From a virus, in IMG/VR virus record IMGVR_UViG_3300030060_005287, positions 1-41,109 of that record: a stretch of DNA of 41,109 nt; one strand, given 5' to 3'. The notes under the pieces were generated by a model that saw only the letters and a list, made by a program, of their open reading frames with translations, searched no databases and was not told the DNA's origin. A program made the position numbers and the translations under genes. Of the stretch, positions 27,916-36,735 are shown one piece after another (the stretch's first letter is position 1; each line of letters begins with the position of its first letter).

Positions 27916-28125
27916 ATGAGTGGAACCAAAGCAAATTGTAACAAGTCAGAATGTCCTGTTACAGAAACGTGTGAAAAAGATTTTGTTCGTTGTACATTAT
28001 GCAAGTTGGGGGTTACTCGATCTACCCTCATCAGTCTTGCACTAGTACCATTCGCGTGGGATGGTGTTGTTTGGTTTAAAGATGCCATTCAGTGGGCATG
28101 GGATACCGTAAGCGGCCTCGGCTGA
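27916..28125 (+). CDS. Small Cys-rich protein with C-terminal membrane segment, unknown
   Basis: 69 aa with a clear AAGGAG before its ATG. The N-terminal half has five cysteines (C8, C13, C19, C26, C29) that include C-T-L-C, possibly a metal site or disulphides. The second half is hydrophobic with several Trp (STLISLALVPFAWDGVVW), a likely membrane segment, followed by an amphipathic helix. It starts 24 bp after the terminator and ends 22 bp before the porin ATG, so it belongs to the porin operon. Function unknown; it could act on the inner membrane during lysis or porin export. Confidence 0.6.
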   Translation: MSGTKANCNKSECPVTETCEKDFVRCTLCKLGVTRSTLISLALVPFAWDGVVWFKDAIQWAWDTVSGLG

Positions 28126-28147
28126 TCTTATGAAAAGGAGAACTACT

Positions 28148-29239
28148 ATGAATAACACAAAGTCAAAGTGGTTTAAGTACGGTATTCTTGGTATTGTCAG
28201 TCTAGTCTTTGGTGTTGCAGTTGACGCAGCAACCGCAGACGAAAACTGGTCAATCGAAGAGGAACGACGTACACAGACGAAACTTCTTGTAGAAGAGGTT
28301 CTCGCGGATGCAAACACTAGAGTCAGTCTAGGTGCAGCGGATTCACCCGTTACCCTTGACGTTTCTGGTTTTGTACAGACTCGTTTCTCGTATAACAGTG
28401 GTGGTAGTGTAGAGGCAAATCACGGATTTGATGTACCTCGCGCCCGCCTCCAGTTTTCTGGCAGCGTGTATGATTTTGATTACGTTGTTAGTGGACAGTG
28501 GTATGATAACAACGGTGGTGAATTTGATCTCACTGATGCATTCGCATCGACTGATATCGCCGGTGTTAACTTTAAGTTTGGACAGTTTGTAAGTCCATTC
28601 ATGAAGTCTTGGGACGTTTATGCAGCAGATACTCTGACTGCGGATCGATCCCTCGTCACTTATACCTTTGGACAGGGACGCTCGCAGGGTATCCAATTCG
28701 GTAAGGAATTTGGAGATCTCCGTCTAAGAGCCTCTTATAATGATGGATTCAATAGTGCAAACGGAGCCGGTGTACAGAACGGCTATGCTCTCAATGCAAG
28801 AGCGGATTATGATGTTGCAGATTGGATGAGTGTTGGTGGTGCTATTTCATGGAATGATCTAGACACTACTGATTTCTGGACTTATACGGTTGACGCCGGA
28901 TTTGTGTTCGGTGGATTTAATTTCGACGCAGCATATGTCGGAAGAAACAGAGATGCTGGTAATGACTGGGCTACCCAGTTCCAAGCGTCTCTCTTCGTCT
29001 CTGATGAAGTTCAACCATTTGCTCGTTATGAGTATGGTTCTCTTCCCGGTGAGGAAGATTTGAGTCTTGTTACCGCAGGTTTCAACTATTATTTCAACGA
29101 TAATGTTAAGTGGACTACTGACGTAGGCTACTCACTTAACGGTATCGGTGTAGGTTGGGACACTGAAAGCACTGGCTGGAACTCCAGCGTGGATAGTGGT
29201 GAATACCTAGTCCGCACTCAAATTCAAATTCGCTTCTGA
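28148..29239 (+). CDS. Outer-membrane porin, OprO/OprP-like
   Basis: 363 aa from the ATG at 28148 (AAAGGAG 6-9 nt upstream; an in-frame ATG at 28130 lies before the SD). A Sec signal peptide is clear: KSKWFKYG, hydrophobic ILGIVSLVFGVAV, then DAATA before DENW. A charged helix (EEERRTQTKLLVEEVLADAN) precedes VTLDVSGFVQTRFSYNSGG, HGFDVPRARLQFSG and YDFDYVVSGQW, the start of the phosphate-selective porin (OprO/OprP) beta-barrel, and later amphipathic strands alternate as expected. The last residues QIQIRF end in Phe, the BAM recognition signal. It would allow small anions or other solutes through the host outer membrane; specificity for phosphate is not proven. A porin in a phage genome is rare. 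Confidence 0.88.
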   Translation: MNNTKSKWFKYGILGIVSLVFGVAVDAATADENWSIEEERRTQTKLLVEEVLADANTRVSLGAADSPVTLDVSGFVQTRFSYNSGGSVEANHGFDVPRARLQFSGSVYDFDYVVSGQWYDNNGGEFDLTDAFASTDIAGVNFKFGQFVSPFMKSWDVYAADTLTADRSLVTYTFGQGRSQGIQFGKEFGDLRLRASYNDGFNSANGAGVQNGYALNARADYDVADWMSVGGAISWNDLDTTDFWTYTVDAGFVFGGFNFDAAYVGRNRDAGNDWATQFQASLFVSDEVQPFARYEYGSLPGEEDLSLVTAGFNYYFNDNVKWTTDVGYSLNGIGVGWDTESTGWNSSVDSGEYLVRTQIQIRF

Positions 29240-29262: not shown

Positions 29263-29270
29263 ACTAGAGC

Positions 29271-29298
29271 AACCTCCCTTCGGGGAGGTTGTTTTTTT
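29271..29298 (+). terminator. Rho-independent terminator after the porin
   Basis: AACCTCCC (29271-29278), loop TTCG, GGGAGGTT (29283-29290), then G and seven T. A textbook stem with a stable UUCG tetraloop and a T tract, ending the porin transcript. Confidence 0.95.
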
Positions 29299-29323: not shown

Positions 29324-29331
29324 TATACATA
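29324..29331 (+). promoter_or_regulatory. TATACATA octamer before the lipoprotein protease
   Basis: TATACATA lies 8 nt before the ATG at 29340, preceded by a T-rich stretch. The same octamer stands in front of three - strand genes. Here it is so close to the ATG that the transcript would be nearly leaderless, in keeping with the lack of an SD. Confidence 0.4.
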
Positions 29332-29339
29332 TTACTGAG

Positions 29340-30044
29340 ATGTTACTGAAACGCCTAGTATTAGCGGTAGTTTCGTTATGTTTAAGCGGATGTTCTGTAG
29401 GAACTGTACATCATAATGAATTTGTTGAAACAGTTCCTGCACCACAATACTTCTACACCACCGAAGAATACGATCCATATCCATCAGTCGGATCAATTAT
29501 CACCGAAGAGGGTGATTTGATTGGATCTGGTGTATTGATAGAATCTGATAAATTATTAACCGCAGCACATGTAGTAGAGAGAGATATAATCTATTACTTT
29601 GATATAGGTGATGAACTTATATTAATAGAACGGGTTCTGATCCATAAAAATTATATAAACACAAAGAATGATATCGCAATAGCATTTCTTAGTTGTGACA
29701 GTTCAGTTAAACCAACTACGCTTATCGACTCAGACGATATTTTGAAAAGAAGAATGCCTTTGGTGACTGTGGGATTTAGTAGAGGCTATAAGAAGTATAG
29801 TGATCCTAAAACATTTTCATATTTTGGTAGTCTTGTGGAGGAACCCGGACACATAAAATTTCTACCACTCCGTGCTACCATCTGGTTTGGTGACTCTGGG
29901 GGTGGTGTATTTGCATATCTAGACGGAGAAATAAAACTAGTAGGAATCATGTCATACTTCGCTGTGGACGATGGACTAGTCTGTGAAAATTCTGCTATAA
30001 ATGTAAAATATTATAGGGATTGGATAGATGAAAACTTGGAATAA
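29340..30044 (+). CDS. Lipoprotein trypsin-like (S1) serine protease
   Basis: 234 aa. The N-terminus KRLVLAVVSLCLSGCSVG is a lipoprotein signal peptide with lipobox L-S-G-C18. The catalytic triad of the trypsin fold is complete: H77 in LLTAAHVV, D111 in TKNDIAIAFL and S186 in FGDSGGGVF, with ITEEGDLIGSGVLIES as the opening strands. Residues after S186 (KLVGIMSYF) fit the next strand. The lipid-modified Cys should anchor it in a membrane, probably on the periplasmic side of the outer membrane, since S19 after Cys gives no inner-membrane retention Asp. Proteolysis of host envelope or phage fibre proteins is inferred, target unknown. No SD; a TATACATA octamer stands 8 nt upstream. Confidence 0.85.
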   Translation: MLLKRLVLAVVSLCLSGCSVGTVHHNEFVETVPAPQYFYTTEEYDPYPSVGSIITEEGDLIGSGVLIESDKLLTAAHVVERDIIYYFDIGDELILIERVLIHKNYINTKNDIAIAFLSCDSSVKPTTLIDSDDILKRRMPLVTVGFSRGYKKYSDPKTFSYFGSLVEEPGHIKFLPLRATIWFGDSGGGVFAYLDGEIKLVGIMSYFAVDDGLVCENSAINVKYYRDWIDENLE

Positions 30045-30047
30045 ATA
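30040..30047 (+). promoter_or_regulatory. Late-promoter-like octamer AATAAATA
   Basis: AATAAATA overlaps the stop codon of the protease gene and ends 19 nt before the RuvC-like ATG, which has its own AGAGGAG. One mismatch to the T4 late octamer; chance is possible. Confidence 0.25.
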
Positions 30048-30066: not shown

Positions 30067-30630
30067 ATGATAATAGCAGGCATTGATTATTCCATGACAA
30101 GTCCAAGCATATGTGTTTACGCTTCAAAGAAGTCGGAAAGTTTTTCTTTCAGTAAATGTAAGTTATATTTTCTAACTGATACGAAGAAATATAGTGGTAC
30201 GTTTAAGAACGTAGTTGGTAAGAACTTTAACGAATGGAACGAAGACACCGAAAGATTTAAGAGTATATCCGATTGGGCGATTGATGTTCTCAATTATGTC
30301 GAGCAAGTTGGACTAGAAGGATATTCGTATAACTCTACTGGTAAAGTTTTCCATATAGCAGAGAACACAGGTATCCTCAAGTATAAGTTATATGAAGACG
30401 GGACACCATATGAAGTTTATTCTCCGTCTGCAATTAAGAAGTTTGCAACCGGAAAGGGTAACGCAGACAAAGAACTTATGTACAAGTCTTTTGTAGAAGA
30501 TACTAAAGTAGATTTGATGGAACTACTTGATTGTAAACAATCAAAGATAGGAAACCCAGTGAGTGATATTGTGGACTCTTATTATGTGTGCAAGAAACTA
30601 TATTCAGAGTATAGATCTAAATCTTCTTGA
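30067..30630 (+). CDS. RuvC-like Holliday-junction resolvase (RNase H fold)
   Basis: 187 aa from ATG 30067 (AGAGGAG upstream; the in-frame ATG at 30028 lies inside the protease gene). The motif IIAGIDYSMTSPSICVY (2-18) carries D7, the first acid of RuvC/RNase H enzymes; VGLEGYSY (81-88) gives E84; SPSAIKKFATGKGNADKELM (119-138) matches the RuvC helix (P-x-x-V/I-K...TG-x-G-x-A-x-K); and NPVSDIVDSYYV (163-174) gives D167 and D170 as last acids. It would cut branched DNA before packaging, a job done by gp49 in T4. Its 3' end overlaps the convergent lipoprotein gene by 14 bp. Confidence 0.8.
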   Translation: MIIAGIDYSMTSPSICVYASKKSESFSFSKCKLYFLTDTKKYSGTFKNVVGKNFNEWNEDTERFKSISDWAIDVLNYVEQVGLEGYSYNSTGKVFHIAENTGILKYKLYEDGTPYEVYSPSAIKKFATGKGNADKELMYKSFVEDTKVDLMELLDCKQSKIGNPVSDIVDSYYVCKKLYSEYRSKSS

Positions 30631-31498
30631 ATCCATTTTTGATTTTGATATGAGATATTATTTTTTTGGTAAGAGAACTAGTAACCTTACCAGCATATCC
30701 ACCCACACCAAATACTTCTTTTCTCTCTTCGGGTGATAGTCTAATTTTCATCTCTTCGACTAACTGGACTATCTCTTTGATTGCTTCCTTGTCGTTTCTT
30801 CCGTCGATAAGCATCCATCCCACCACACCAAGTGAAGCAACAATACCAACAATCAATACAATGAGTCCAACCGTAGCAATCTCTTCGAGATAGAACTGAG
30901 ACGCTGCTGCAAACCCAACGGTGAGGACACCAATAGCGAGAACAATACCACCCAGTTTTCCACTAACCCAGAACGTGAGAAAAGCACCACCAATGAGCAT
31001 GGCAAATCCTGCTACAAAAAACAAAGTTATAAAACTGTGTAGGTTCTGAAGTGCCTCTTTACGAACTTCTCTATCAGATTCTTCGTAGTCTTGGACTAAA
31101 TCTTCTAAGTCCTTGATTTGTCCAATTGCCGCAGCCACCCTTGAGTTCGCGGATTCTAAATCCTCTAGAGCCTCTTCTATTCTTATTTGTTCTTTCTCCG
31201 CATCGTCCACATGCTCCTTGATCGATTCTGCGTTGTTTTCGATGCTGTCCAGCAAGGGATCGTTTTGATTTGGGGAAAGTGCTATCCCATCTAAAATAGA
31301 GTCTGCTTCCTCGTTGATGCTGTTCAGAGTCCCTGAGATCGCTCCTGAAGCGTCTGTGATCTCTTCTGTCTGCTCTTTCTGTTCTCGTACACTGTCCACT
31401 ACGGTGGATGAGGTGTTCTCTGGGGACGATGTTATGTCTTGAAAACTTTCGCATCCTACCATCGTTAGCAACAATGTGCCTATTATTATCTCTTTCAT
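30617..31498 (-). CDS. Membrane lipoprotein with coiled coil and several transmembrane segments
   Basis: 293 aa from the ATG at 31498 (GGAGG about 9 nt upstream). The start KEIIIGTLLLTMVGCESF is a signal peptide with a lipobox-like M-V-G-C16. Residues about 40-140 are Glu/Gln-rich heptads (EKEQIRIEEALEDLESANSR and following), a probable coiled coil. Three or so hydrophobic segments follow (FITLFFVAGFAMLIGGAFL, GGIVLAIGVLTVGFAAA, TVGLIVLIVGIVASLGVVGW). The tail is soluble and basic. A lipoprotein plus multiple membrane spans is unusual, and the weak lipobox means that the N-terminus might instead be a plain anchor. Spanin-like or superinfection roles are possible; no family recognised. Confidence 0.6.
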   Translation of the reverse strand: MKEIIIGTLLLTMVGCESFQDITSSPENTSSTVVDSVREQKEQTEEITDASGAISGTLNSINEEADSILDGIALSPNQNDPLLDSIENNAESIKEHVDDAEKEQIRIEEALEDLESANSRVAAAIGQIKDLEDLVQDYEESDREVRKEALQNLHSFITLFFVAGFAMLIGGAFLTFWVSGKLGGIVLAIGVLTVGFAAASQFYLEEIATVGLIVLIVGIVASLGVVGWMLIDGRNDKEAIKEIVQLVEEMKIRLSPEERKEVFGVGGYAGKVTSSLTKKIISHIKIKNGFKKI

Positions 31499-34940: not shown

Positions 34941-36704
34941 TTATTCTCCGGGTGTTCCTTTTTTGTATAAATCGAGGAGGGACTTCTTTCCCCATTCTCT
35001 TTTAGAGGAATCAGTTTCTTGTGGTGTTTTCACTGACTCATTATTACCGATGCCTCTATTTTTCGATTTATCCATTACGGAGATGTTAGACGCAGAATTA
35101 TTTAGGGGATTTCCGTCCTTGTGGTGAAGATCTTTTCCGTCTCCCTTTTTTACCAAACCTTTTCTTTCCGCCACTCTCCTTGCAGCACCTCTCGCAGTTC
35201 TTCTCATGATTTGTTCTTTGCTGCTGTTCCATTTAGCCTGTCGTGCTGCCCTTCTTTCAGGATCTTCACTCTCGGCTTTTATGTTTTTTACAGTTTGTGT
35301 TGTTATACCAGATATCATTACTGGTGTTTCTCCACCACCAACTTTCAATGGAACAACTGGCTCTACTTTAGGTTTAATTTTTTTGAAAGGACGTTGTGAA
35401 ATTGGTAATTGTTCCTTTGGTGTTTCTTCGGAACCATTTACCTTTCTCTCCGCTCGTTTTCTTGCAGCGTCCTTTTGTTTTGGACTCTCTATACCAGTCC
35501 CTTTGGAGAACTCTTTTTGCTTCTCCCTTGTAACCGCATTTTGGTTGATTTTATTGACAGCCTCTGTTGCAAGTCTAGCCTTCATCCTATCTCTCTCCTT
35601 CTGCTTCACCCCAGGCAGAAGTTTCTTTGCTAGTCTCTTTACAACTTTTTTCTTTTTCTTTACCTTTACTTCGATTCTTTCTTTGTCCTTTGGACTGAGA
35701 TCTGCCCAGTTCTTACCTCTAAGAATCTTATTTTTTACTGCAAGGATAGCCGCTCTATTAGCAGCCTTTTTAATATCTGACTTGCCCTTCATTCTCTTAG
35801 ACTTCATCTTGCGTTTTAAGGCTCTTCGTTTAGCAGTTCTTCTTGCCGCTCTACCCATTTTCAGTCTTTGTTGAACGGTTAATTCATTTAGTTCATTTTC
35901 ATCGACATTTTCTAAGCGATCCGTTGCATCTTTTTTAGTATCTTGAACTTTTGCACGGGCTTTCTGTCGAGTGTGTTGAATTTTCATTCTCTCTCGCTCT
36001 CTCCTGTGCTGCTGTAAAAGATTTGATTTCTGCATTTGATGTCTGTCTCTCACATACGATATTTTTCCTTGCTCTTGTAGATCGTACAGAGTTTCTCTAA
36101 ATTCATCAAATTCTTCATATACAAACCAAGACTGATCAACGTGTTCTTTTATACCCATACTTTTCTGCAAAGTTTTAAACATCGTCTCGGATTCTTTTTT
36201 ACTTATATGATTAGGTAGTCCCATCTTGAACGAATTTATATCTCCGTCCTTAGCAGCCTGTCTCATTTTAGAAGCAGACATACCACTGACTCCTTCGGCT
36301 TCAGGATCTCGTTCACCCGCAGACACAACATCGAATTCCTTTATGTCATAGTCTTTACCAGGTCCGACATAGCGAGATATGCTTTTCTTAAATTCTGCAA
36401 CCCTATCGGAACCCACAACCATTATGATTTTTTCGTAACCGGCGTCGGATAATACTTTCATAGCATGAAACGCTGTTTTTACATTAGAGTCAACTACAGC
36501 ATTTTTATCCCGAAGGATTTTTCTCATGTATCTTTCTTTTATCTTTGGAGATAGTGGATTTTTTCTCTTGTCAAAACTAGAACTACCGTATATTTTATAG
36601 TCTGCTCCGTTGGATCTAGCAACAGACTTAACCTTTTCAGCCAGTTTTATGTGACCTACTGTGGGTGGGTTGAATCTCCCAAATGTGAATACAACGGTTT
36701 TCAT
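34941..36704 (-). CDS. Fusion: cytidylyltransferase-like nucleotidyltransferase + basic helical region + HNH motif
   Basis: 587 aa from ATG 36704 (GGAG 9 nt upstream). Residues 1-190 form an NMNAT/cytidylyltransferase-like domain: VVFTFGRFNPPTVGHIKLAE has the T-V-G-H18 form of the HxGH motif, GSSSFDKRKNPLS and VGSDRV follow, and GMSASKMRQAA takes the place of the ISSTxxR motif. Residues about 200-450 are extremely Lys/Arg-rich helices (RLKMGRAARRTAKRRALKRK), a segment that many marine T4-like phages have as a separate protein. Near the end DLHHKDGNPLNNSASNISV (about 525-543) is an HNH-type nuclease motif. The basic part suggests DNA or head-core binding. Function of the combination is unknown. 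Confidence 0.75.
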   Translation of the reverse strand: MKTVVFTFGRFNPPTVGHIKLAEKVKSVARSNGADYKIYGSSSFDKRKNPLSPKIKERYMRKILRDKNAVVDSNVKTAFHAMKVLSDAGYEKIIMVVGSDRVAEFKKSISRYVGPGKDYDIKEFDVVSAGERDPEAEGVSGMSASKMRQAAKDGDINSFKMGLPNHISKKESETMFKTLQKSMGIKEHVDQSWFVYEEFDEFRETLYDLQEQGKISYVRDRHQMQKSNLLQQHRRERERMKIQHTRQKARAKVQDTKKDATDRLENVDENELNELTVQQRLKMGRAARRTAKRRALKRKMKSKRMKGKSDIKKAANRAAILAVKNKILRGKNWADLSPKDKERIEVKVKKKKKVVKRLAKKLLPGVKQKERDRMKARLATEAVNKINQNAVTREKQKEFSKGTGIESPKQKDAARKRAERKVNGSEETPKEQLPISQRPFKKIKPKVEPVVPLKVGGGETPVMISGITTQTVKNIKAESEDPERRAARQAKWNSSKEQIMRRTARGAARRVAERKGLVKKGDGKDLHHKDGNPLNNSASNISVMDKSKNRGIGNNESVKTPQETDSSKREWGKKSLLDLYKKGTPGE

Positions 36705-36735
36705 AAACACAGTCTCCGTGAACTTATAGATATTA

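Follow-up and report, generated by a model that had tools for sequence, protein, structure and literature searches.

A predicted lipid-anchored S1 protease with a T4-type late promoter motif in uncultured T4-like phages

The protease locus and its relatives

The window analyzed here, a stretch of 41,109 nucleotides from IMG/VR virus record IMGVR_UViG_3300030060_005287, carries on its plus strand an open reading frame (29340..30044) for a product of 234 amino acids that begins MLLKRLVLAVVSLCLSGC and that sequence, Pfam profiles, a family alignment, and a structural model assign to the S1 (chymotrypsin-fold) serine proteases as a putative lipoprotein. Upstream on the same strand lies a porin gene (28148..29239; PF13609, 40.1 bits versus 27), whose frame opens at 28130 and whose start we set at 28148 because the frame begins there in L001, the one relative (86% identical) that an IMG/VR scan with the window protease as a single sequence returned. 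A 69-amino-acid open reading frame (27916..28125, plus strand) is kept upstream of the porin in related loci, where the two co-occur, and its small product contains Cys. The gap between porin and protease holds an intrinsic-terminator-like site with a 13-pair stem and a T tail (29266..29295, plus strand). Downstream of the protease, again on the plus strand, follows a gene for a RuvC-like Holliday junction resolvase (30067..30630; phrog_159, 2.1e-30), with its likely start at 30067 in a frame that opens at 30028.

A family search of the scanned window proteins recognized no lysis gene adjoining the protease, and inspection by eye yielded one spanin-like candidate. This 293-amino-acid protein (30617-31498, minus strand) has a lipobox-like MVGC16, a charged stretch resembling a coiled coil, and three C-terminal hydrophobic segments, an arrangement somewhat like that of a unimolecular spanin, and its relatives lie beside RuvC in many loci. 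Farther along the minus strand (34941-36710), a 589-amino-acid open reading frame combines a cytidylyltransferase-like N terminus with an HNH-endonuclease-like C terminus.

Profile matches in the window include a DNA polymerase (phrog_262), UvsX, a DnaB-like helicase, a primase, a ribonucleotide reductase, and a thymidylate synthase. The ribonucleotide reductase is nearest to adenosylcobalamin-dependent enzymes, and the DNA polymerase is nearest to those of cyanomyoviruses (52 to 54% among the matches listed). Relatives of the protease are present in six contigs of 118 to 157 kb, all six of which hold a Gp23 capsid gene and a gp55-like late sigma factor. Gp23 was found in none of three shorter records searched, the 41-kb window among them, and the window is probably part of a larger genome. 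The recurrence of the protease in T4-like contigs marks it as a phage gene and rules out host contamination, a possibility that the first-pass annotation had raised.

Used as an IMG/VR query, the RuvC-like gene returned 387 relatives, of which 80 loci were retained, and in many of these a divergent protease lies directly upstream of RuvC. From 46 protease sequences, 30 representatives were picked by leaving out incomplete ones and merging those more than 92% identical; the other 29 rows of the resulting alignment are 34 to 86% identical to the window protease. A profile built from this alignment found 282 protease relatives in IMG/VR (80 loci retained), so the initial impression that such an enzyme is very unusual in a phage does not hold. 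Among GenBank phages, no match was found with the window protease (E <= 0.1), with L053 or L027 (E <= 0.01), or with L075 (E <= 10), while L058 and L027 at E <= 10 gave weak matches only, of which proteases of Innesvirus (E of 0.3 and 3) are the sole plausible ones. By these sequence comparisons, the protease has no close relative in any named phage, and the Innesvirus proteases of Rhizobium phages are distant relatives.

Bacterial genome contigs contain at least 19 loci matching the protease, and among those listed only L165 is close (35%), with the other 18 at 26 to 30%. L165 lies on a 14.5-kb contig of a metagenome-assembled genome titled Gammaproteobacteria, and a neighboring open reading frame weakly matches a tail PHROG (5e-4). 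This may be a viral contig; Gp23 was not found in the genome of L165, in a search that was silent in controls too. The open-license literature searched yielded no description of this lipoprotein protease family, and a trypsin-like serine protease is mentioned in a cluster of alphaproteobacterial phages in one paper (PMC10783043). The S1 protease class itself is known, and the lipoprotein branch appears to be new.

The gene neighborhoods were counted over distinct loci with enough sequence, which are related sequences and not independent events. A RuvC-like gene lies less than 1.5 kb downstream of the protease in 43 of 56 protease-query loci, and upstream of the protease there is a porin in 15 of 27 and a nucleotide reductase in 20 of 27. 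Among RuvC-query loci with enough upstream sequence, the protease precedes RuvC in 34 of 51 and is absent from 17. In L008, whose RuvC is 88% identical to that of the window, porin and RuvC are present with no protease between them, so the protease is either dispensable there or has been gained or lost, and together with the 17 RuvC loci this indicates that not all of these phages require it. With a porin in only 15 of 27 loci, the association of porin and protease is not general. The first-pass annotation had suspected a functional tie between the two, which is not supported: a strong terminator-like site separates the genes, the protease has a late-promoter motif of its own, 12 of 27 loci have no porin, and L008 has a porin without a protease.

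The porin had no tblastn match in 50,697 GenBank phage records and is present in many IMG/VR loci of the same phage group. Its matches in bacteria were weak (4 of 385 genomes of one class and 2 of 369 of another, with a best identity of 33%), and the order of the best-matching genome comprised three genomes, one of them with a match. The RuvC gene matched 509 GenBank phage records; in four of these (Pelagibacter phage Mosig, pf16, DLP6, and PhiW-14), no trypsin-like protease is annotated beside RuvC, and pf16 has an "ATP-dependent protease" annotated two genes upstream of it.

Catalytic domain and membrane anchor

The window protease scores well above the Pfam thresholds for Trypsin (PF00089, 42.5 bits against a gathering score of 20.6) and Trypsin_2 (PF13365, 35.1 bits against a cut-off of 27.6), and both profiles are matched by all 30 family members at E <= 0.01. 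An AlphaFold2 model with the 30-sequence family alignment as input (pLDDT 87.1, pTM 0.80) predicts a double beta-barrel, and the structures closest to this model in VIA-align are chymotrypsin-type S1A enzymes (delta-chymotrypsin 1dlk_B, Z 26.7 over 192 residues, 1.9 A). By its predicted fold and its triad, the protease is a member of the S1 family. A Foldseek comparison with viral structures returned numerous S1-like proteins, chiefly from eukaryotic viruses (11 to 22% identity among the matches listed), which reflect the shared fold only.

The catalytic residues His77 (29568..29570), Asp111 (29670..29672), and Ser186 within GDSGG (29895..29897), all on the plus strand, are unchanged in 30 of 30 aligned members, and Cys18 is kept in 28 of 30. 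In the larger set, a loose motif test found the order of triad and GDSG in 77 of 81 members. The lipobox LSGC18, the triad, and GDSGG all stand in the translation at the positions that the first reading of the sequence had given. Comparison of the window with the 86% identical L001 gave a dN/dS of 0.081 for the catalytic domain, indicating purifying selection, and of 1.4, from few sites, for residues 1 to 34. Together, the conservation of triad and Cys18 and the purifying selection on the catalytic domain argue that the protease features are not due to chance.

The specificity of the enzyme probably departs from that of trypsin. The equivalent of S1 pocket position 189, assigned by counting back from the catalytic Ser without structural superposition, is T180 in the window protease, the sixth residue before Ser186. 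Across 81 members this residue is S (40), T (21), H (13), N (4), or P (3) and never Asp, which makes cleavage after Arg or Lys, as by trypsin, unlikely. The original label "trypsin-like" is thus right as to fold and probably wrong as to specificity.

At its N terminus, the window protease has a basic n-region, a hydrophobic h-region, and the lipobox L15-S16-G17-C18 (29382..29393, plus strand), with Ser, not Asp, as the +2 residue. Under a relaxed pattern that allows ATG, GTG, or TTG starts, 76 of the 81 distinct complete members have a lipobox; a stricter pattern with ATG starts only finds one in 71 of 83. Of the five members without one, four (L046, L060, L061, and L066) carry a hydrophobic segment at the N terminus but no Cys, and in the fifth (L082) the N terminus is missing from the frame read. 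Since a hydrophobic segment replaces the lipobox in those four, tethering itself appears to be selected, although their transmembrane-like anchor would mean an inner-membrane location for them. Throughout the family, the +2 residue is K, Q, T, I, V, L, S, R, or A and never Asp; in E. coli, a non-Asp +2 residue is compatible with sorting to the outer membrane. Model confidence is low at residues 18 to 33, as would be expected of a linker behind a lipid anchor. The proposal that a phage encodes a membrane-anchored S1 protease is thus supported at the sequence level by lipobox, triad, and recurrence in T4-like contigs.

Late promoter motif and predicted leader

A T4-type late promoter motif, TATACATA (29324..29331, plus strand), stands 16 nt before the ATG of the protease. 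In T4, the late promoter is TATAAATA at -13 to -6, and CTAAATA serves in Aeh1 (PMC1524935), while cyanophage S-PM2 uses NATAAATA as its late promoter consensus (PMC2984593). For 57 of 81 members, the 40 nt immediately preceding the protease start contain the strict motif [TC]ATA[AC]ATA, compared with an average of 1.27 and at most 5 across 200 shuffles and with 0.7 in random 40-mers of the same loci, and the motif precedes 68 of 746 other open reading frames of at least 120 amino acids. Several of the remaining protease upstream regions hold the near variants CATATATA or CTAAATA, and a late motif lies no more than 120 nt before Gp23 in four of the six large contigs. A sigma-70 promoter scan found 5 sites, against 8.5 in shuffles. 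With the NATAAATA-type motif in 57 of 81 members and a gp55-like factor in the six large relatives, the protease is apparently a T4-type late gene.

Applied to the window motif, the T4 spacing (PMC1524935) places the predicted transcript start at about 29337, with a leader of about 3 nt. A broader motif is present before 59 of 75 proteases with a lipobox-anchored start, in 50 of these 59 at 13 to 17 nt from the ATG, a distance at which T4 spacing predicts leaders of 0 to 4 nt, and only 12 of the 75 have a Shine-Dalgarno-like word. For other open reading frames with the motif within 70 nt (n = 114), the commonest distances are 25 to 34 nt (49 cases), and 88 have a Shine-Dalgarno-like word. The protease mRNA should, on these sequence features, be almost leaderless, unlike those of most late-motif genes of the same loci.

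Two further observations concern these promoters. The word CC[AG][CT]TT occurs no more than 25 nt ahead of the late motif in 28 of 62 distinct promoters of the protease versus 4 of 272 other sites, and it is absent upstream of the late motif of the window protease. Before RuvC there is also a late-promoter-like motif, AATAAATA (30040..30047, plus strand; compare the NATAAATA consensus in PMC2984593), which overlaps the protease stop codon; in L008, which is without the protease, ATAAATA is found at the same place.

Possible roles and comparison with known systems

We suggest tentatively that the family represents a late membrane-tethered protease of uncultured T4-like phages whose likeliest purpose is virion release or receptor destruction, a reading that we rank first and consider plausible but somewhat short of probable. 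The signal peptide would carry the protease across the inner membrane, the lipobox Cys would be lipidated, and a short flexible linker (about residues 19 to 34) would hold the catalytic domain in the envelope, probably on the outer membrane. A protease that is exported, tethered, and expressed late can be expected to work on the host envelope in the assembly and lysis stages, and cleavage of host outer-membrane or periplasmic proteins while virions assemble might make the envelope give way, stop receptors on dying cells and debris from trapping progeny, or both. Support comes from the unchanged triad, the predicted S1 fold, the lipobox, and the late motif; on the other side stand close relatives without the gene, the transmembrane-like anchor of four members, and the result of the family search, which recognized no lysis gene beside the protease among the window proteins scanned. 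A bolder proposition, which we regard as rather improbable, is that the enzyme is a dedicated proteolytic release factor, lipid tethered, late, and made from a leaderless mRNA, that cuts outer-membrane attachments or eliminates receptors at lysis, a role so far attributed to spanins and receptor-masking proteins, and that it is standard in a large uncultured T4-like lineage.

Second in our ranking, and in our judgment unlikely, is superinfection exclusion, in which the tethered protease would cleave the receptor of the infected cell and block adsorption or injection by later phages, as a catalytic counterpart of T5 Llp and phi80 Cor. The lipobox and the non-Asp +2 residue are consistent with this, and phage lipoproteins that target receptors in the outer membrane are a known class: Llp engages its receptor on the periplasmic face, a mode of action also supposed for Cor proteins (PMC9586334), with receptor inactivation by Cor also listed in PMC11436027. 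However, the promoter motif of the protease is late, whereas Llp is "expressed early during infection," in the title of a work cited in PMC9586334, and the main text of one exclusion review contains neither "protease" nor "lipoprotein," so that no precedent for proteolytic exclusion was found there. A late enzyme would arrive past the best time for exclusion but soon enough to keep progeny from being trapped or to weaken the outer membrane, and release or receptor destruction thus fits the late motif better than exclusion does.

Still more doubtful is a part in envelope quality control or stress, with DegP- or DegS-like removal of misfolded outer-membrane proteins or tuning of the host stress response while the phage porin is synthesized. 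The degP_htrA_DO profile is matched by 18 of 30 members and MarP by 14 of 30 (E <= 0.01), and a porin gene adjoins the protease in the window. The window protease itself matches neither profile, its 234 residues are matched in Pfam by essentially only S1 profiles with no PDZ domain among them, its GDSGG and best structural matches point to chymotrypsin-type S1A enzymes, and the porin is upstream in only the 15 of 27 loci mentioned above.

A virion or prohead protease, packaged or maturing structural proteins, would share its late promoter motif with structural genes but is very improbable given the export signal, the lipobox in 76 of 81 members, and the separate prohead core protease that T4-like phages already have (annotated in Pelagibacter phage Mosig). 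We give hardly any credence to processing of the neighboring porin, as the first-pass annotation had proposed: the genes adjoin in the window and L001, and an upstream porin frame is seen in 29 of 84 distinct protease loci, within the available sequence, but a terminator-like site separates the two, many loci have a protease and no porin, and L006/L008 (one contig), L011, and L022 have, within the available sequence, a porin without a protease. Equally remote is a defense or counter-defense effector, for although the PADLOC models LmuA (2.6e-13) and RT-Protease_XI match the protease domain, only positions 16 to 198 of the 425 in LmuA are covered, short of a full-length Lamassu LmuA, and the signal peptide would take the protease out of the cytoplasm.

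The presence of the protease in hundreds of uncultured relatives suggests a standard, undescribed route by which these phages alter or breach the surface of the host. The protease offers a handle on how uncultured T4-like phages treat the host envelope late in infection. Enzymes of its class are readily assayed, and S186A offers a simple way to inactivate this one; because the family is conserved and has many members, results would apply to hundreds of phages.

Among known systems, the Innesvirus protease of the Rhizobium phages P10VF, RL38J1, and AF3 is likewise S1-type, about 230 amino acids long, and equipped with an N-terminal hydrophobic segment, and its gene lies near capsid genes in a large phage genome, as in the present family. 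The PHROG model that fits it, phrog_9683, matches 29 of 30 family members; the window protease scores 34.6 bits (2.6e-8) on this model against 254 bits for the Innesvirus protein, which suggests a distant branch, and the identity between the Innesvirus protease and L058 is 29.5% over part of L058, at an E of 0.3 that is below tblastn significance. The Innesvirus protease differs in having GMSGG in place of GDSGG, no lipobox in the sequence read, an ordinary Shine-Dalgarno word, no late motif directly upstream, and a gene that is not beside RuvC. With the chymotrypsin/trypsin S1A enzymes (delta-chymotrypsin 1dlk, Z 26.7), the phage protease has in common the predicted fold, the H-D-S triad, and GDSGG, but it is only about 21% identical to delta-chymotrypsin, appears to be lipid anchored, and has no Asp at the 189 position. 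HtrA, DegP, and MarP resemble it in their envelope location and in weak profile matches of some family members, but the phage protease is without a PDZ domain and has GDSGG, where the HtrA motif is GNSGG. Spanins are lysis-stage phage envelope proteins, some of them lipoproteins; the phage protease, in contrast, has a protease domain and no second hydrophobic segment. T5 Llp and Cor are also phage lipoproteins that act at the host outer membrane (PMC9586334), but these are small binding proteins that have no catalytic domain, and Llp is early, whereas the phage enzyme is a catalytic-domain protein with a late motif. Should the phage enzyme indeed serve release or the destruction of receptors, it would be the proteolytic equivalent of spanins or of the receptor-destroying enzymes known from viruses.
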